Assembly (NCBI RefSeq): GCF_023566055.1
Contig: NZ_JALIQP010000007.1
Span: 124,001 to 188,000 of the forward strand
DNA length: 64,000 nucleotides
Direction: 5' to 3'
DNA from: Halosolutus amylolyticus
GTDB taxonomy: Archaea; Halobacteriota; Halobacteria; Halobacteriales; Natrialbaceae
In this document: piece by piece, positions 9,031 through 22,872 of the stretch
Layout: each line of letters begins with the position of its first letter
How positions within the stretch are numbered: position 1 is the stretch's first letter
Notes under the pieces: generated by a model
Databases searched by the model: none
Told to the model about the DNA's origin: nothing
The model's input: the letters and a program-made list of their open reading frames with translations, nothing else
Made by a program: the position numbers and the translations under genes

Positions 9031-9391
9031 CCCGCTCGATGGTGCCACCGACAGGCGATGGCGGGAGCCCTGCCCCCATCGATCGTCCCATCCTCGAGTT
9101 CCTCCAGACGCGGCTCCAAGCGACGAGGCAGGTCTCCCGAGCAACCGTCACGGATACAAGCGGCCATCTCGAGCTTCAGGTCGTCTTTGCCCCGTCGTAC
9201 TACCCGGCAGCCGTCGACGAGGCGCAGTTGACGGTTCGTTGGTACACGAACGACGACTTCAACTGAAACGGGAGCGCGGAGTCCTCTCCCTCAAGGAATG
9301 AGCGAAGCGAGTAAGTAGGGAGGGAGGGAGAAATGCGCTCGATGGGCTACAAACACTGTTATTTAAGTAGCCAAAGATACCCATTGAAACT

Positions 9392-11006: not shown

Positions 11007-11297
11007 ATGGCTACTCCCGATCTCCACGACGACACGAGTGCCGACTACGAACAGTTCGAGAAAGAGTTGCTCGCCCAGGACCGCGACGCCGCCAGGGTCG
11101 ACACGGCGGACATCGACGACACGATGGCCCGCAGCGTGGTCGACGATCTCGTCGACGCGGACGTCGTCACCCCGGTTCCCGAGGACCGCGTTCTCGTTCA
11201 CGAGCCGAGTAGTACTGTGTTCGATTCAGCCACGCAGTTGGCTGTCTTCCACCAGGGCTGGACGGCCGCTTGCAACGCCGACGTGGAGGCCGAGTGA
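11007..11297 (+). CDS. Small acidic haloarchaeal protein of unknown function
   Basis: A 96-residue, strongly acidic protein (begins MATPDLHDDTSADYEQFEKE). The middle part (TADIDDTMARSVVDDLVDAD, then VVTPVPEDRVLVHEPSS) looks like a small helix-strand domain. No motif allows a function. Its TGA shares one base with the ATG of the following zinc-finger gene at 11297, so the two were probably translated from one mRNA. Confidence 0.7.
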   Translation: MATPDLHDDTSADYEQFEKELLAQDRDAARVDTADIDDTMARSVVDDLVDADVVTPVPEDRVLVHEPSSTVFDSATQLAVFHQGWTAACNADVEAE

Positions 11298-11632
11298 TGC
11301 AGCAGACGCTCGTTGGCTGTGCCTTCTGTGACGCCCCACCCGGTACCGAGACTAGCGAGGCCCACACTTGGGGGCAGGACGAGCGAGTCACCCACCCGAT
11401 CTGCGTCGACTGTGCGATCTAGTCGCGACTCGATCTCGATGAGCGCGATCACCACGCCTGCGACGGGTGTGGGCTCGTCGTTGACACGCTCGCAGCGCTC
11501 ACTCGATTTCGCGTAGAACTTGGACATCTCGAGGGGCCGCTGCAGCTTTGTGCTCGCTGTAGCCCCGGTGGGCCCGCCACGCACTGGACGCGTGACCTCG
11601 AGGAACATCTCGTCGCGACGCCAGCGGAGTGA
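11297..11632 (+). pseudogene. Double-zinc-finger gene interrupted by an in-frame TAG
   Basis: The frame starts with ATG overlapping the previous stop and encodes MQQTLVGCAFCDAPPGTE... to HPICVDCAI, meets TAG at 11420-11422, and continues in the same frame with SRLDLDERDHHACDGCGLVV, LQLCARCSPGGPATHW and a stop at 11630-11632. Both sides carry CxxC knuckles, and together they make a normal ~111-residue zinc-finger protein of a haloarchaeal family (DUF7558, from memory). A single C-to-T change (CAG to TAG) explains the break. The 41-residue upstream product alone would keep one zinc-binding unit. Confidence 0.75.
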
Positions 11633-11721
11633 CTCCCTCCCGCATTTCTGGGCACGGAAACGCCCGTCCACGATAGCAAACATACCAAACAACTTAATTC
11701 CAACAGTCCCAACACTAGCCT

Positions 11722-12081
11722 ATGTCGAGCGGCACCATCGATATCGACGAGTTCGAGAACGCTGACGCCGACGAATTCGAGGACCGGAATGATACCGAGC
11801 GGATCGTGCTGTTCCTCGACAAGAATGACGACCGAGCGTGGAAGGCGACAACGATCGCCGAGCACCTCGGGCTGGATACAGACGCCGTCAGTGCGATTCT
11901 CTCGCGATTGAAGGAACGAGGTCTCGTGCGGCACAAGCGCCCGTACTGGGCGATCACGGACGACGAGGAACGACTCCAGTCAGCCTATCGGCTCCACCGA
12001 CACCACGAGACTGCAGACGAACAGTACGGTGAGGAGTGTCTTGAGGACCTCGAAACCGACGAGATGGAAGAAGTACAGTGA
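11722..12081 (+). CDS. MarR/TrmB-like winged-helix protein, partner of a broken PemK-type toxin
   Basis: A 119-residue acidic protein with a winged-helix core at ~35-80 (ERIVLFLDKNDDRAWKATTI, then SRLKERGLVRHKRPYWAITD). It overlaps the next frame, which starts with GTG at 12078, by four bases. That frame opens like a PemK/MazF-type toxin, so this protein is probably its antitoxin or regulator. The toxin is now cut off after ~20 residues, leaving this gene as an orphan. The start at 11722 follows an A/T-rich ACTTAATTCC stretch that could be the promoter. Confidence 0.75.
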   Translation: MSSGTIDIDEFENADADEFEDRNDTERIVLFLDKNDDRAWKATTIAEHLGLDTDAVSAILSRLKERGLVRHKRPYWAITDDEERLQSAYRLHRHHETADEQYGEECLEDLETDEMEEVQ

Positions 12082-12140
12082 CTGCGTTCGAAGAACTGGA
12101 ACGCGGTGACATCGTGTGGGCGACCGACCCGCTCTCGGAG
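12078..12140 (+). pseudogene. 5' remnant of a PemK/MazF-like toxin gene
   Basis: GTG start and ~21 codons, MTAFEELERGDIVWATDPLS, the opening strand of PemK/MazF-type toxins ('GDIVWATDPLS'). At about 12140 the frame passes into the 3' part of a tnpB gene, so the rest of the toxin has been deleted. The overlap with the upstream HTH gene is the usual toxin-antitoxin arrangement. Confidence 0.6.
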
Positions 12141-12533
12141 AGTTCTATACGTCATACAAGGCCGCGTTCGAGGGGGTTCCGACCGCGTGGATTGACCCAG
12201 CATACACGAGTCAGAGGTGTCCGATGTGCGGTCATACGGAGCGTGCGAACCGTCACAAGAAGCGGTTCAAGTGTCGGTCGTGTGGGCACCAAGACCACAG
12301 CGACCGTGGTGCAAGCGTCAATATCGCCGTGAAAGGCGTGAAGAAACTCGATTGGAATGTGCCTGCTCTCAACAGCCTTCCCGTTGTTCGGACGGTGCGA
12401 CGGCAGGCATCGGGGGCCGTGGACGCCCCGACCGTGACCCATCCGACCGCCCGAGGCTATCAGGCCGATGGTCAAGTGGGAGTGTCCGACTAAACCACGG
12501 GAAGCCTCGGGGATTGACCCCGAGGCGGTTCAC
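12141..12533 (+). pseudogene. tnpB: 3' remnant of an IS605-type tnpB with an intact right end
   Basis: From AGTTCTATAC onward the DNA encodes FYTSYKAAFEGVPTAWIDPA..., nearly the same as the C-terminal third of the intact TnpB at 42191-43429. It includes the zinc finger CPMCG...CRSCG and the last RuvC aspartate (SDRGASVN). The first two catalytic motifs are missing, so it cannot cut DNA. The right-end hairpin CCTCGGGG-attga-CCCCGAGG (12505-12525) and the border GGCGGTTCAC (to 12533) are intact, so an reRNA-like transcript could still be made. Confidence 0.85.
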
Positions 12534-12593
12534 TTCCGAGCCCGTACTTGTCGCAACTGATAAAGGGACACACAGAGTCTGCTCAACAGAACA

Positions 12594-12764
12594 ATGGCGT
12601 CCAGCACCGATCCCTCGACGGCGGTCGACGACGAGGTCCGCCAGCTCTACGAGCGGTATCAGGCGGCCGAGAGCGATGCCGAACGTCGCGAGATCGCCCT
12701 CGAGATGGGTGAGCTTGACGGACACCGCCACGCGGTGATCTATGCAGCACTCGAAGACGAGTAA
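12594..12764 (+). CDS. Small acidic helical protein (56 aa)
   Basis: ATG at 12594 and TAA at 12762-12764. The protein reads MASSTDPSTAVDDEVRQLYE, then RYQAAESDAERREIALEMGE and ends AVIYAALEDE. It is predicted to be almost all helix with strong acidic bias, which supports it being a real gene despite its size. It begins 60 bases after the TnpB remnant's right end. Function unknown; a small DNA-associated or antitoxin-like protein is possible. Confidence 0.55.
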   Translation: MASSTDPSTAVDDEVRQLYERYQAAESDAERREIALEMGELDGHRHAVIYAALEDE

Positions 12765-15301: not shown

Positions 15302-16198
15302 ATGTCAAGTAAGAACGTTACCAGTGAAGTAGTTTCGGTCGATGAACAGGCATTCGAAAAAGCGGACGAAGAGGTGGTCGACGAGGACGGCTTCGAGGTC
15401 GTCGATGAGACACCGGAGTTCCAGGCAACGGTGCAGATGGAGGTGCAGGCGAAGGTAGATGCCAACCACCCGGACGGGATGGTCGACACCAGTGACGAGC
15501 GAATCTACGGTGCGACTCTTGAACAGGAAGAGCGCATTCGGGCGCGAGAGGCGGAGCTGGAGCGCATCAGTGCCAGGGCGGAGATGGGGATGCAAGAAGG
15601 TCGGGAGAAGCGGACGCGAGATATCGCGGCGAAGCGGAGCGCTGAGCGACGTGTTGAGTTCCAGAAACGGGCGGCAAGCGTGAACCCGTGGGCGGATCCA
15701 GAGCGAGACGATCCTCGTGCAGAACTGACGCAGGAGCAGTTGGCTGTGGTGAACAAGCAGTCAATGCGGCTGGCCGAGAAGCTGGATGGCTGGTCGCGAG
15801 CAGCGATTGGTCGGCGAATGGGTGAAGCCGTCGTCGATGGGAAAGACCTGATGAGTGCAGTCGTCGGGGTGTTCGAGGAGTTGCAGACGGCGCCGGGACA
15901 GGTGGTTCCCATCGGGATGCTCGAAGGCGTCAATCGGAAAGAGGTGAGCATCGAAGGTACTGTGACACAGCTGTGGGAGTCGTCGAGTTCAGCTATTTCC
16001 CAAGTGGGGCTCATCGAAGACGAAAGTGGGCGAACGAAGCTGACGTCGTGGGTCGCAAGTGACCAACCCTGGATCGAAGAAGGCGAACGAGTTCGCATTC
16101 ACGGGGCTGCGAAGAACTGGTACAACGGGCGCGTCTCAGTAGCCCTCACTGGGTGGAGCACCGTGATGTTCCCTGAGCGCGGTCGGTGGTGGGAATAG
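15302..16198 (+). CDS. OB-fold (RPA-like) DNA-binding protein, copy 1
   Basis: A 298-residue protein. The N-terminal ~60 residues are acidic, followed by a long charged helical region (~75-150). A helical part (NKQSMRLAEKLDGWSRAAIG) leads into a C-terminal OB-fold (~215-290): VSIEGTVTQLWESSSSAISQ, GLIEDESGRTKLTSWVA, EEGERVRIHGAAKNWYNGRV and a tail ending PERGRWWE. This strand pattern with GRTKLT and WYNGR is that of RPA-type single-strand-binding domains. A paralogue with 282 residues lies at 33151. A T-rich terminator (CTCTTTTTTG) follows the stop. A role in plasmid replication, repair or leader binding is inferred. Confidence 0.8.
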   Translation: MSSKNVTSEVVSVDEQAFEKADEEVVDEDGFEVVDETPEFQATVQMEVQAKVDANHPDGMVDTSDERIYGATLEQEERIRAREAELERISARAEMGMQEGREKRTRDIAAKRSAERRVEFQKRAASVNPWADPERDDPRAELTQEQLAVVNKQSMRLAEKLDGWSRAAIGRRMGEAVVDGKDLMSAVVGVFEELQTAPGQVVPIGMLEGVNRKEVSIEGTVTQLWESSSSAISQVGLIEDESGRTKLTSWVASDQPWIEEGERVRIHGAAKNWYNGRVSVALTGWSTVMFPERGRWWE

Positions 16199-16444
16199 CC
16201 GGTCGAGGTGACTCTTTTTTGCTACGTACCGGACCGACCCAGACCCCTCCTCCCCACCCTCCGCTCCGTGCTCGCTTCGCTGCGCGCGCAGCCACGACCT
16301 CGAGAACAAGTCCAACATTTGAGCAAGAAACTGGGGAAGGAGTACGCGATGCGAGCGAATCTGTCAGACCCACGACTGGTGCGGGCGTACCTGCAATCAT
16401 GTTGAAACGTTCGTGGATGTTCGCGATTTCTTGGAGGCGAATTC

Positions 16445-16639
16445 TTAGTCAGTGTACTCCGCTATGGAGAACTGCTTCCCGCCCTGTTTCTCCAAATACT
16501 CCTGGACCGTGGTCTCACGGAGATGTTCTTCCACGTCATAGAGCTCTGAGATGTCTCCCCGGCTGAACGAGTACTCATATTTCCCGATATCGTCGCACGC
16601 ATTTCTATGCCGAAGGTATTCTAGAGTCTTCCTCACCAT
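16445..16639 (-). CDS. Small protein of an A/T-rich unknown operon (64 aa)
   Basis: Begins MVRKTLEYLRHRNACDDIGK and ends QFSIAEYTD; mostly helical and mixed in charge. It overlaps the 3' end of the upstream gene at 16633 by seven bases, which points to coupled translation and supports its reality. It is the last gene of a minus-strand operon with 16633-17349 and 17352-18626. I recognise no family. Confidence 0.55.
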   Translation of the reverse strand: MVRKTLEYLRHRNACDDIGKYEYSFSRGDISELYDVEEHLRETTVQEYLEKQGGKQFSIAEYTD

Positions 16640-17349
16640 ATCAAGATCATATCACGATCATAGTAGTGGGGAACCCTACGGGGTGTCATCTTCACAGTCT
16701 CGTTGTGTTTGAACTGTTCCGGCAGGATAACTTGGGCAAGCGATACTGCCAAGCTCTCAGGTTTGATTTCTCCAGTCAGAAGGAACTCTTTGCTCGGGGT
16801 TGGAGGCAAGTTGATTCCGGTGGAAACAATGCTGTGGAAGGAGTCGTCTTGTGCTAATCCGTCTTCGAAAAGGAGTTTACCGCCTCTGCTCTGTGAGAGG
16901 ATGCCGCATTTGTCCTTGATGTCGTCGTAGATATCTGCACCGGGTCCTCCTGCCTTAGCTGACTCTACGGCGTCTTTGTCAAAAACGAGATGATGTTCGA
17001 AGTGGTTGAGATTACGGGTGGAAAGATGGACTTCTCCTGCTCTGCCTTTTTTCCGGATGAAGTCTTCGACGGCCTCTAGGTTCAACCGTTGGTAGTCTTC
17101 TGCTCGGCGACGGTGTTCTTCGGTGACTCGGTCATCTGGTTCCACGTTGACGAAGACGACGGTGTCGCCGCTGTAGAACGTGAATTCTGGCCGTGTGAAC
17201 ACGTCGTTCCGGTTATCGGGGACTGGGAGAAATGGACCGACGAGTTTGAAGCCCTGAGACGCGATCCCACGATTACTGGTGTCGCTTTTTATAACTGAGT
17301 GGAAGAGATTCAGAGCGTTTATTTTCTCTTTTTGTTCCAGCCATCCCAT
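16633..17349 (-). CDS. Unknown protein of the A/T-rich operon (238 aa)
   Basis: A soluble protein with a central alpha/beta look: FTFYSGDTVVFVNVEPDDRV, then EDYQRLNLEAVEDFIRKKGR, HHLVFDKDAVESAKAGGPGA, GKLLFEDGLAQDDSFHSIVS and a C-terminus RVPHYYDRDMILIW. There is no nucleotide-binding loop and no PD-(D/E)xK motif I can point to with confidence. Base composition is clearly A/T-richer than in the neighbouring OB-fold and TFB genes, a sign of transfer. It is separated from the 424-aa gene upstream by two bases and overlaps the small gene downstream. Candidate component of an undescribed defence-type or conflict system; no function assigned. Confidence 0.65.
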   Translation of the reverse strand: MGWLEQKEKINALNLFHSVIKSDTSNRGIASQGFKLVGPFLPVPDNRNDVFTRPEFTFYSGDTVVFVNVEPDDRVTEEHRRRAEDYQRLNLEAVEDFIRKKGRAGEVHLSTRNLNHFEHHLVFDKDAVESAKAGGPGADIYDDIKDKCGILSQSRGGKLLFEDGLAQDDSFHSIVSTGINLPPTPSKEFLLTGEIKPESLAVSLAQVILPEQFKHNETVKMTPRRVPHYYDRDMILIW

Positions 17350-17351
17350 GG

Positions 17352-18626
17352 TTAGACAGTAATCTTCTCCGAGTGCTTCTTCACCCGATAATTAGTGCTG
17401 AGTTCTCTGTGGATAATGGAGTAAAAGTCGCTGAGGCTGGCAGCTGTCGTGGTTGCCTTGGCGTGGAGCAGAATGTTCGTCTCGTTGATCGTGATTTCGA
17501 AGGGTTCGTTCCGTTCTCCGTCGAAGACAAAGAAGTTGCCTTCTTCCCACTCTGAAAAGTCGTATCGGTGTTTTCTATCGAGGATGTTTTCCCGAAGCCC
17601 TTTAACCAATTGCTCGAACGACGGAGATTCCTGATCCGGGTCCGTTTTCTTGTTAGGTATGTGCTCAACCAGTTCGACTGTGGTGTAGCCTTCAATGGCG
17701 AATCCACCGTCGACCGCTACAGAATCTGGTGTATCATTGTCGGAGGGGGCGGGTACGTCTTTCGAGTCCTCTACATCGAAGTCGGAGAGCTCTTGTATGG
17801 CCTGTTCGTCCCTATAGGACAGCTTTCTTGGCGCGTATTCGACTTCGAAGTTCTCCTGATCCTTTTCGACGTATTGGTTGGTGAGTTCTATTGTGGTATC
17901 GTTCCCAAAGCCGGGTTCCGATTGCTGGACACGTGGAATCGAGCCGTATCCGTCCCGGTTTGCTGTTCCCTCAATTCTCGGGCTGTTCGTCTTGCTGAAT
18001 TCCAGTCGGGTAGGTTGGACTCCGTAATCGTCTTCCAGATCTGTTAGATACCGTTGTTCCCCACCGTGGAGCTGGATGCTCATATCTCGGTCGTCAAAGA
18101 CAGTATCGTATTTCGCGGTGAAGCCGTCTATGTTGCCTTCGACTTTGTTAACGATGTCGACGAGGTCTTCTGAGGAGAGGAATACTCTATCTAATGAGGG
18201 GAGGTAGCGAATCAGTTTCTCTACGGTTCGTTTGGTCCAGTGACGTCGTTCGACTGTGAAGACCCGGAGATAGTTATCTTTGAGGTAGAAGATGAAGTGG
18301 TCGTGACGGTCGTATTCCGGCGTGCTGATTCGAACGTAGGAAGTGTCCTCATTCAGTTTTTGTTCTTCGAACAGATGTTCCTCGAAGAAGGTATATTCGT
18401 AGTCTTTCAGGGATTTATCTCGGAGTTGGGTTTCCACGATCGCTGCCAAGTTTCCAAGTTCGTATTCGTTGCCGCGTGCGATGAAGAACTTCAGCTCCGG
18501 AGTTTTCGTCGTTTTCTTCTTTTTTTCTTCAGATATCTCTTCGTCGGTTCGAGTTACAAAATCAACAAGTTCGCCGACGATCGTGTCGATATCTTCCCCG
18601 GTCAGGTTTTCCAAGTTTGGTTTCAT
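17352..18626 (-). CDS. Unknown protein of the A/T-rich operon (424 aa)
   Basis: First gene of the operon. It has a lysine-rich segment near residues 33-43 (EEKKKKTTKTPELKFFIAR) and an alpha/beta region with YVRISTPEYDRHDHFIFYLK and LRVFTVERRHWTKRTVEKLI. An acidic middle (~250-310) is followed by a separate C-terminal domain, FFVFDGERNEPFEITINETN and then ILLHAKATTTAASLSDFYSI. The layout suggests two globular domains joined by a flexible acidic linker. No family is recognised. It shares A/T-rich composition with its operon partners, and an upstream two-helix membrane protein gene is on the same strand 128 bases away. Confidence 0.7.
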   Translation of the reverse strand: MKPNLENLTGEDIDTIVGELVDFVTRTDEEISEEKKKKTTKTPELKFFIARGNEYELGNLAAIVETQLRDKSLKDYEYTFFEEHLFEEQKLNEDTSYVRISTPEYDRHDHFIFYLKDNYLRVFTVERRHWTKRTVEKLIRYLPSLDRVFLSSEDLVDIVNKVEGNIDGFTAKYDTVFDDRDMSIQLHGGEQRYLTDLEDDYGVQPTRLEFSKTNSPRIEGTANRDGYGSIPRVQQSEPGFGNDTTIELTNQYVEKDQENFEVEYAPRKLSYRDEQAIQELSDFDVEDSKDVPAPSDNDTPDSVAVDGGFAIEGYTTVELVEHIPNKKTDPDQESPSFEQLVKGLRENILDRKHRYDFSEWEEGNFFVFDGERNEPFEITINETNILLHAKATTTAASLSDFYSIIHRELSTNYRVKKHSEKITV

Positions 18627-18754
18627 AGTGATGGGGGTTTAACCTGTGGTTCTTGTTGTGTTTGGGTAGGGTGTGCGGACTGCCATTAGCGAGACTCTTT
18701 CCGCTGGGAACAAAAAGATGCATGATGACTTTATCGGAGAGGGTATGGAGGCGT

Positions 18755-19600
18755 TCAGGCTTTGATAGCGCCGACTTTGTCTGATTCTTTGGATTTTCTT
18801 ACGGCTCTTTCGTTGGCGGCTGAGGACAGTTTCAGGTTGGCATCTCCGTTGGATGATTTAATGGTGTAGATTGAGAGGTCGATTTCTTTCTGGTTTCCTT
18901 TGGCGTCTTTGTAGCGGAGTTGTGTTGCGATTTCTATTTCGTCAATGTCGCCCTCTGATACAAAGATGTCATTGATGGCGTCAGCGATGTCGATGGGTTC
19001 GTCTTGGCTGTGTTCTATGTCAGTGACTTCCGCTGGGACGGAAAACTCTACTTCGTCTTCTTCGGGGGATATACTGCCGCCGGACCCGGAGCTCCACCAT
19101 ACGCCGTCTTCTGTTCTTCTGAGTGGGCGGCTGTGATTCGTGTAGCGTTGGTTATCGGTGTCGTAAGAGATCAGGAAGTGGAGTTGGAGATCAGTTGCTA
19201 ATGAGTTGCCGCGGTTGACTATGGTGAGTTGAAGGGATTCGGTTTCGGAAATTTCGGGATTAGAGCTGTGGTCTTCGAGGGTTTGCTGTGTGACGCCGAC
19301 AAGTGGTGTATATCTGGCATCCATAATCTGTTTTTGTTGGTTCATCAGGACTCGTTGCCGGTCTTGGGTGCGGAATTGTAGGAGGTAGGCGAAGAGTAGG
19401 CCTGCAGAGAGGATGATTGAGGCGAGGCCGTCGTTGGTGCTGGCCCATGATGTGACGCTGTTCACGAATTGCTCTCCGGCATAGATACTGAGGTCGATCG
19501 TTACTGCGGCGAGGAAGATGATGCCAAGGAGTTCGACCCAGCGGGTTTTGATGAAGCTCCAGACTTTTGATCGCAAGCTGTCGGAGCTGTCACCATCCAT
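18755..19600 (-). CDS. Two-helix membrane protein of the A/T-rich block
   Basis: A 281-residue protein. Two membrane segments lie near residues 20-42 (ELLGIIFLAAVTIDLSIYAG) and 58-76 (GLASIILSAGLLFAYLLQF), then a cytosolic C-terminal domain: SLQLTIVNRGNSLATDLQLH, an acidic SSGSGGSISPEEDEVEFSVP strand region and DEIEIATQLRYKDAKGNQKE. The soluble part looks like a beta-sandwich. Its composition and strand match the downstream three-gene operon, so it may be a membrane partner of that system. No family is recognised. Confidence 0.65.
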   Translation of the reverse strand: MDGDSSDSLRSKVWSFIKTRWVELLGIIFLAAVTIDLSIYAGEQFVNSVTSWASTNDGLASIILSAGLLFAYLLQFRTQDRQRVLMNQQKQIMDARYTPLVGVTQQTLEDHSSNPEISETESLQLTIVNRGNSLATDLQLHFLISYDTDNQRYTNHSRPLRRTEDGVWWSSGSGGSISPEEDEVEFSVPAEVTDIEHSQDEPIDIADAINDIFVSEGDIDEIEIATQLRYKDAKGNQKEIDLSIYTIKSSNGDANLKLSSAANERAVRKSKESDKVGAIKA

Positions 19601-19882: not shown

Positions 19883-20809
19883 ATGGCGACGAGAGATATC
19901 TACGAAACAAGCTTCGACGAGGACGTCCAGACGAACTCCAGCACGAACCCATGTCCGGAGTGCGATGGCCGGGTCACTACCAACTCGGTCGAAACCATCT
20001 GTGAGGACTGTGGACTCGTTATTGAGGAACAACGAATCGACCACGGTCCTGAATGGAGAACTCACGATCAAGACCAGCGAAAGCGGACGGGCGCTCCACT
20101 GACTGCGGCACGTCACGACCGAGGGCTGTCGACGGAAATCGGTCGCTGGAAAGATGCGAACGGGAACGAACTCTCCGGGCGAAAGCGCCAGCAGCTATCC
20201 CGAATGCGGCGTGAACAGACTCGTGGTCGGTTCCAGTCGAAAGCCGAGCGAAACCTCGCACACGGCTTGGGTGAAGTTCGAAGAATCGCGAGCGTCCTCG
20301 AGCTCTCAAGTTCGGTTCGGGATCAGGCGTGTCAACTGTTCCGGAGCGCTCAAACCGAAGATCTGCTTCGAGGCCGATCAATCGAGGCGATAGCTGCAGC
20401 AAGCGTCTATGGAGTCTGTCGCTGTAACGGCCACTCGCGGTTACTCGACGACGTCGTCGACGCGGCACGCGTTGAACAATCGAGAGTTACGAACGCGTAC
20501 AAGACGCTGAATACAGAACTTGGACTGCCAGCCCAGCCTGTTCGCCCGAGCGAATTCATCCCCCGTCTCGCGTCAGAACTCGATGTTCCAGCGTACATCC
20601 GACAGCGAGCTCGAAGGTTGGCTGAACAGTCTGAATCGACAGGAGTAGCGTCCGGTGTCAAACCATCAGGATTCGCAGCCGCCTGTCTGTATAAGGCGGG
20701 TCGCGAAGAAGGACAATGGCTGACGCAGGCGGAAGTCGCTGCGGCGGCGAGCGTCACTGCAACGACCATCCGGTCACATCGAGACACGTTAGAGGATCAG
20801 GTAGCCTGA
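19883..20809 (+). CDS. tfb: Transcription initiation factor TFB
   Basis: A 308-residue archaeal TFIIB. The N-terminal zinc ribbon has C24/C27 and C40/C43 (CPECDG...CEDCG). The B-reader/linker region DHGPEWRTHDQDQRKRTGAP is followed by the first cyclin repeat (~115-205, AERNLAHGLGEVRRIASVLE) and the second (~210-305, ending with a recognition helix in ASVTATTIRSHRDTL). TFB recruits RNA polymerase to TBP-bound promoters. Haloarchaea carry several TFBs, and plasmid-borne ones direct special gene sets. It lies among accessory genes, so it is more likely an auxiliary than the housekeeping TFB. Confidence 0.95.
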   Translation: MATRDIYETSFDEDVQTNSSTNPCPECDGRVTTNSVETICEDCGLVIEEQRIDHGPEWRTHDQDQRKRTGAPLTAARHDRGLSTEIGRWKDANGNELSGRKRQQLSRMRREQTRGRFQSKAERNLAHGLGEVRRIASVLELSSSVRDQACQLFRSAQTEDLLRGRSIEAIAAASVYGVCRCNGHSRLLDDVVDAARVEQSRVTNAYKTLNTELGLPAQPVRPSEFIPRLASELDVPAYIRQRARRLAEQSESTGVASGVKPSGFAAACLYKAGREEGQWLTQAEVAAAASVTATTIRSHRDTLEDQVA

Positions 20810-22050: not shown

Positions 22051-22872
22051 ATGGACGTAACCGAGGACATGGTTCGGGATGTCTGCACGGACGCGGTCTT
22101 CGAGCGCGGCGATCGATACCTTGCTGAGGGCCGTGTCCATGAGATTCACCGCGTCGACACCACCGTAACCGCCGTCGTGAGCGGCAGCCGTCAGTACGAT
22201 GTCCGTGTTGACCTCGCCGCCGACGGGTTTGCCCCGTGGTGCGACTGTCCGTACGACGGGCCGGGAACGTGCAAGCACGTCGTCGCCGTATTGCTTCGGT
22301 GTGTTGACGACCGTCCACCAGACGAAGGCGATCGACTCGACGCTGCACTCAACGGTGCCGACGCCGACGAGCTCCGCGCGTTCCTGCGTGAAGAACTCGT
22401 GACCGATGCGGACCTCCGCGATCGGTTTCTCGCCCATGCCGGTGGGTCGACGAGGCGGTCGGTCAACGAACTTCGCACCTCGATCGATCGGCGGTTTGAG
22501 GAGACGAACCCTGAATACGACGTCGTTTTCGAGCCGATCGACTTCACGCAGTGGTTCGATCTCGCGAACGAGTACCGCAAGCAGGGGCAGTACAGATCAG
22601 CGATGATCGTCTACCGGGGACTTATCGAGTCGCTTGACGACAACATGGAGCGCGTCGACGGCGCATACGACCACTTCTCGAGTGCGTTCAGACGGGCACT
22701 CGACGGGTACGTCGACTGTGTCGTGGCCACGGAACGCGACGCCGACACGGTCACAGACGCCGTCGCATTCCTCGATGAGCGAGCGACGTCGGGAACGCCA
22801 TTCCTCGCGGAACACTTCGAGCGGGCAGCGGCCGAGCTCCGAGAAGAGGTAGGCGAACAGTCCTGCGAGTAG
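22051..22872 (+). CDS. SWIM zinc-finger protein
   Basis: A 273-residue protein. The SWIM motif CxCx7CxH is C64-D-C66...C74-K-H76 (WCDCPYDGPGTCKHVV), after the typical opening VFERGDRYLAEGRVHEIHRV. The rest is helical, with TPR-like stretches (FDLANEYRKQGQYRSAMIVY). SWIM proteins bind DNA or protein partners; in archaea they occur with recombination or helicase factors, often on mobile DNA. It stands alone between small regulatory genes. The ATG at 22051 is the natural start. Confidence 0.85.
   Translation: MDVTEDMVRDVCTDAVFERGDRYLAEGRVHEIHRVDTTVTAVVSGSRQYDVRVDLAADGFAPWCDCPYDGPGTCKHVVAVLLRCVDDRPPDEGDRLDAALNGADADELRAFLREELVTDADLRDRFLAHAGGSTRRSVNELRTSIDRRFEETNPEYDVVFEPIDFTQWFDLANEYRKQGQYRSAMIVYRGLIESLDDNMERVDGAYDHFSSAFRRALDGYVDCVVATERDADTVTDAVAFLDERATSGTPFLAEHFERAAAELREEVGEQSCE

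Follow-up and report, generated by a model that had tools for sequence, protein, structure and literature searches.

The module described here lies in a window of 64,000 nucleotides of Halosolutus amylolyticus DNA (the whole stretch that was analysed) and is made up of gene D (281 aa), gene C (424 aa) and a gene B (~301 aa) that is interrupted in the window. The features are as follows:

18755 to 19600, minus strand: gene D, 281 aa; a pair of transmembrane helices at the N terminus and a beta-rich-looking soluble domain with a NRGNSLATDLQL motif
17352 to 18626, minus strand: gene C, 424 aa, soluble; examined by AlphaFold2 model, Foldseek and invariant residues
16633 to 17349, minus strand: first part of gene B, 238-aa open reading frame; PD-(D/E)xK-like domain and start of the C-terminal part
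16445 to 16639, minus strand: second part of gene B, 64-aa open reading frame in another frame; remainder of the winged helix, then the PCNA-box-like tail KQFSIAEYTD
about 16647 to 16651, minus strand: 1-bp deletion (GG to G) splitting gene B, from DNA alignment with loci L031 and L032
16440 to 19559, no strand assigned: cassette D-C-B; by blastn the sole stretch of the window common to locus L153

The open reading frames of 64, 238, 424 and 281 aa, the 7-base overlap and the 2-base gap listed in an earlier note on this DNA are all present. The two hydrophobic helices that it had assigned to the upstream 281-aa product were likewise seen, as was the difference in composition (G+C ~0.50 in the module, ~0.60 in the flanks). 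Its count of four genes has to be revised: the 64- and 238-aa frames align end to end with a single protein of ~301 aa in essentially every relative and are the halves of one frameshifted gene, so that the module has three genes. DNA alignment with two homologues carrying an intact B (one 99% identical, the other about 95% identical in B and 92% in C) placed the loss of one G (GG to G) near position 16649, and the 238-/64-aa split was recovered again in the genome search. On this alignment it is the frameshift that gave rise to the 7-base overlap. The interruption is either a mutation or an assembly error, which sequencing reads are needed to tell apart. As a caution, a single-base frameshift had made three genes look like four.

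Chances are about even that the window holds a decaying, inactive copy, a reading that is compatible with any function of the family proposed below. The 1-bp deletion points that way, and copies elsewhere do decay: fragments of C are found in genome G112, and at locus L032 (Natrinema gari) D contains a transposase-bearing insertion (about 11170 to 12740) flanked by the 10-bp direct repeat GCTAGGGAGT. Against decay, C and D of the window are intact, an ATG within the overlap (ATGGTGA) could permit reinitiation, and the deletion may be an assembly error.

Occurrence and mobility of the cassette

With the 424-aa protein as query, C matches were obtained in 27 of 391 haloarchaeal genomes. A B profile detected 24 genomes of the same set, all of which (24/24) also carry C; the surplus C matches are a few fragments or weak matches. 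The C-B pair is found in about 6–7% of the haloarchaeal genomes sampled, and in every locus read C is followed directly by B (gaps of -4 to +5 where tabulated). Orthologues of D (E below 1e-45) were found in eight genomes of the sample and in G431, exclusively at C-B loci. The earlier note had proposed co-occurrence of its genes as a check; this was borne out for C with B, and D accompanies them at a subset of loci only.

Apart from one contaminated record, no relative outside the haloarchaea turned up in 84,980 scanned prokaryotic genomes or in a phylum search. This candidate, labelled Rhizobium sp. S152 (NZ_JAUDRZ010000015.1), was discarded as probable contamination, its neighbours being haloarchaeal. 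Searches of phages and viral contigs (IMG/VR) likewise gave no relative. In five plasmid records the gene after C has the size of B, and comparison identified it as B each time; one of the records is pHME505 of Haloferax mediterranei, on which both genes are annotated as hypothetical only. In H. mediterranei ATCC 33500 the pair is E6P09_RS16455-RS16460. Copies of the cassette are often located on plasmids or non-main contigs, and others lie on main chromosomes (contigs of 3–4 Mb in G281, G106, G064 and G400). As a side observation, the otherwise C-less genome G216 holds 22 residues with 91% identity to C (positions 9283 to 9348 of locus L055), perhaps a relic.

C-B is lower in G+C than its surroundings at 25 of 26 loci. 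Mapping of the host-family label onto the C tree required 14 changes, compared with 15.6 for shuffles, and this near-random placement indicates horizontal transfer. Comparison of the window with G431 (locus L153, from another family and in a different genomic setting) gave homology over 16440 to 19559 only, which is essentially D-C-B; by these sequence comparisons, the cassette moves as a unit. The four open reading frames gave nothing usable in Pfam, NCBIfam, PHROGs, PADLOC or PDB sequence searches, in agreement with the earlier note, which had recognised no family, and profile searches of the PDB returned no credible match. A published description of this gene combination was not found in the open-access text to which the literature search was limited. 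The absence of family matches, the strict C-B linkage and the horizontal mobility as a discrete cassette uphold the proposal of an undescribed module.

Predicted properties of proteins B, C and D

From model and sequence, B is predicted to comprise a PD-(D/E)xK-like domain, then a winged helix and then a PCNA-box-like C-terminal tail. In the AlphaFold2 model of the intact B of L031 (pLDDT 88.1), a strand begins with PD and the strand after it ends with ExK. Foldseek matched the model to XisH, Bax1 and SduA/Shedu, and to wHTH proteins over the C-terminal part, with E-values that are individually weak. The fold class is consistent across these matches and agrees with the sequence, so that assignment to the PD-(D/E)xK type is supported by prediction. 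Pfam gave no match for B. The SduA (Shedu) model of PADLOC matched neither the window proteins nor 22 B members at E<=10; B members gave weak, single-member PADLOC matches to NERD and CARF-PDDEXK.

The pattern E..PD..ExK..Q is present in all 25 B proteins examined from loci without D (25/25), and the P-D/E-x-K residues are replaced in all eight intact B proteins from loci with D (8/8). The window B has the same replacements as its D-associated relatives (RPEF..VNVE at the motif sites); it has lost the motif's Asp, Glu and Lys and is predicted to lack catalytic activity. Within the clade of the window, dN/dS is about 0.03–0.07 for B (intact genes) and C, which indicates that the altered B is still under purifying selection.

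At the C terminus of many B proteins an acidic linker is followed by a Qxx[ILM]xx(x)[aromatic] motif, like that of PCNA-interacting peptides. The motif Qxx[LIM]xx[F/xF] was found in the last 35 aa of 21 of 32 B proteins and 10 of 346 control proteins, a contrast whose p-value is not independent evidence, the B rows being related. It recurs in distant B clades (QFSIAEY in the window clade) and is degenerate in the L045-type clade. The tail of B is PIP-box-like and probably docks onto PCNA.

One alternative is a maintenance or addiction module of plasmids or mobile elements, with B or D as the toxin and C as antitoxin or regulator. The frequent location on plasmids or non-main contigs, the discrete mobile cassette and the tight C-B operon would suit it, and the wHTH of B could autoregulate; yet neither B nor C is small, both also reside on main chromosomes, antitoxin families gave no match, and a dead nuclease is kept under purifying selection in members with D. 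This alternative is regarded as unlikely.

In the B tree, the proteins from loci with D form one group (92/84). In the C tree they form two neighbouring groups, for which a single clade was not rejected (p-AU 0.21). Loss of the active site and presence of D probably go back to one old switch followed by long divergence, as judged from these trees. Several independent switches from nuclease to membrane protein were considered and found unsupported, given the single clade of the B tree and a C tree compatible with one origin. With the association probably amounting to one event, D as a 'replacement' is something that we infer.

The AlphaFold2 model of C (pLDDT 81.5) is composed of repeated beta-alpha units in an order resembling that of TBP repeats (beta-alpha-beta(4)-alpha). 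Foldseek returned Iml3/CENP-L, TBPs, RnlA, and RdgC-like and RnlA-like viral proteins, all with low TM-scores (below 0.35 for the leading PDB matches). A true TBP was ruled out at the profile level: Pfam PF00352 did not match, and hhalign against 25 haloarchaeal TBPs gave nothing. No internal repeats were detectable in C at the profile level, and the RnlA/RNase LS model of PADLOC gave no match at E<=1. C is considered likely to bind nucleic acid; its kinship to TBP is unproven. Around residues 265–305, C proteins from loci with D contain an additional segment, part of which has low confidence. Small haloarchaeal proteins resembling the C-terminal domain of C alone were also observed (L159, 5580 to 6200; L161, 5780 to 6166; L165, 835 to 1161).

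D has hydropathy peaks at residues 24–42 and 58–76, and its soluble C-terminal part contains a conserved GN..A.DL motif in an alignment of seven orthologues. A wide, unnamed haloarchaeal family of distant D relatives, with one or two transmembrane helices and an N-x-GNxxAxDL-type domain, was seen at loci L135 to L148; no Pfam family matched it. D was not classed as a mere member of this wide membrane family: distant relatives exist, but the orthologues are specific to C-B.

It may still be asked whether D is an unrelated neighbour drawn from a common haloarchaeal two-helix family, the nuclease having been lost independently of it. Distant two-helix relatives do match away from C-B in 39 of the 391 genomes, the association may be a single event, and the D-C gap of 79–128 bp allows a separate promoter. 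Nevertheless, D orthologues in the sample occur exclusively upstream of C-B, and they do so in two C-B clades that separated anciently and in hosts of different families; at L153, D has reached a new site together with C-B, and the extra segment is common to the C proteins that accompany it. We consider such an independent origin improbable.

Neighbouring genes and comparison with known systems

Within 5 kb of the cassette, neighbours matched 166 PADLOC models at 25 loci, compared with 15 at 25 control regions on the same contigs; these raw model counts were dropped as an enrichment statistic, single proteins matching many models. Roughly ten distinct proteins of the controls also matched some PADLOC model. 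Twenty large neighbours were then checked individually, and defence-type neighbours were confirmed at six loci:

L038: SNF2 helicase
L042: OLD/AriA-like and SMC-like ATPases, on both sides of the locus
L044: type IV restriction protein
L052: IIG/PglX-like methylase
L150: MkoA-like protein
L152: MkoA-like protein and DpdJ/BrxHI-like helicase

At the window's own locus no defence-type neighbour was identified. Taken together, the defence-gene neighbours are suggestive of a defence role.

Further genes were observed in the window, all on the plus strand. A complete transcription factor B (TFIIB) gene (19883 to 20809) adjoins the cassette and is found at the same place in L031 and L032. An OB-fold protein with a weak tRNA_anti-codon Pfam match is encoded at 15302 to 16198; its relatives adjoin the cassette in L031 and L032 and lie near C-B in L051, which may reflect a shared plasmid backbone. 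Two more were assigned by their letters alone: an IS200/IS605-type TnpB C-terminal zinc ribbon (CPMCG..CRSCG) at 12116 to 12493, an apparent transposon remnant, and a SWIM-type zinc finger protein (CDCPYDGPGTCKH) at 22051 to 22872.

NucS/EndoMS is an archaeal clamp-associated nuclease of the PD-(D/E)xK type whose C terminus carries a PCNA motif. B resembles it in nuclease type and in this motif, and differs in the absence of a Pfam match, in the order of its domains (nuclease first, then wHTH), in its sporadic and mobile occurrence and in its pairing with C. The likeness raises the possibility of an accessory for DNA repair or replication-fork processing carried on mobile DNA, in which a PD-(D/E)xK nuclease would be guided by the clamp as in NucS/EndoMS. 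The PIP-like tail of B and the weak similarity of C to DNA-binding folds such as RdgC fit this proposal. The distribution is, however, patchy (27/391 genomes) and shaped by horizontal transfer, not that of a core function, and a clade that lost the nuclease and gained a membrane protein is hard to reconcile with it; a repair function accordingly seems rather doubtful to us.

Shedu SduA and the NERD nuclease of TALON share with B the predicted PD-(D/E)xK fold, SduA being among its Foldseek matches. B lies outside those sequence families, has a winged helix and a PIP-like tail, has C as an obligate partner and is predicted to be dead in the window clade. TOTE/TALON is a defence operon with TBP proteins and a PD-(D/E)xK NERD nuclease (PMC12458937). 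It serves as a precedent for such parts, but C has no profile similarity to TBP and the cassette has neither the YprA helicase nor TPR-CSD; joint conservation is limited to D, C and B and the neighbours vary by locus, so that the operon of YprA-type helicase, TPR-CSD, TBP and NERD was not found. The RnlA/LsoA (RNase LS) antiviral toxins are a family described with TBP-like domains (PMC3710099). RnlA is a weak structural match of C; PADLOC gave no match, however, and the partner of C is a PD-(D/E)xK protein instead of RnlB.

Proposed function

The explanation that we prefer, with about half of our confidence, is that the cassette is a mobile agent of genetic conflict in haloarchaea, directed most likely against viruses or plasmids, and that a membrane effector took over from its nuclease effector or was added to it. 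An anti-phage role is plausible in view of the nuclease-type effector, the patchy distribution and some defence neighbours. In the two-gene form, C would recognise invading or abnormally replicating DNA, and B, tethered to the sliding clamp PCNA, would cut that DNA or cut DNA suicidally. In the lineage with D, selection would retain the catalytically dead B for a structural or clamp-binding part in the complex of proteins, and D would have been added, probably as a replacement effector at the membrane. Gene structure, linkage, the loss of the motif where D is present, selection and mobility are demonstrated; the ligand of C, the binding of PCNA, the effector function of D and the antiviral role are what we infer.

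A more specific version is put forward only tentatively, with a low probability: archaeal immunity would act through the clamp, C spotting replicating foreign DNA and clamp-tethered B cutting it, and one lineage would have disarmed B into a clamp/DNA adaptor and passed the killing to the recruited D.

Archaeal immunity is poorly charted, and the cassette offers a strictly linked, mobile pair outside known families with a clear enzymatic prediction, together with a natural variant that has lost the active site beside the form without D. One member belongs to Haloferax mediterranei ATCC 33500, an organism of laboratory use, so that both the idea of a defence function and that of an 'effector swap' are directly testable.
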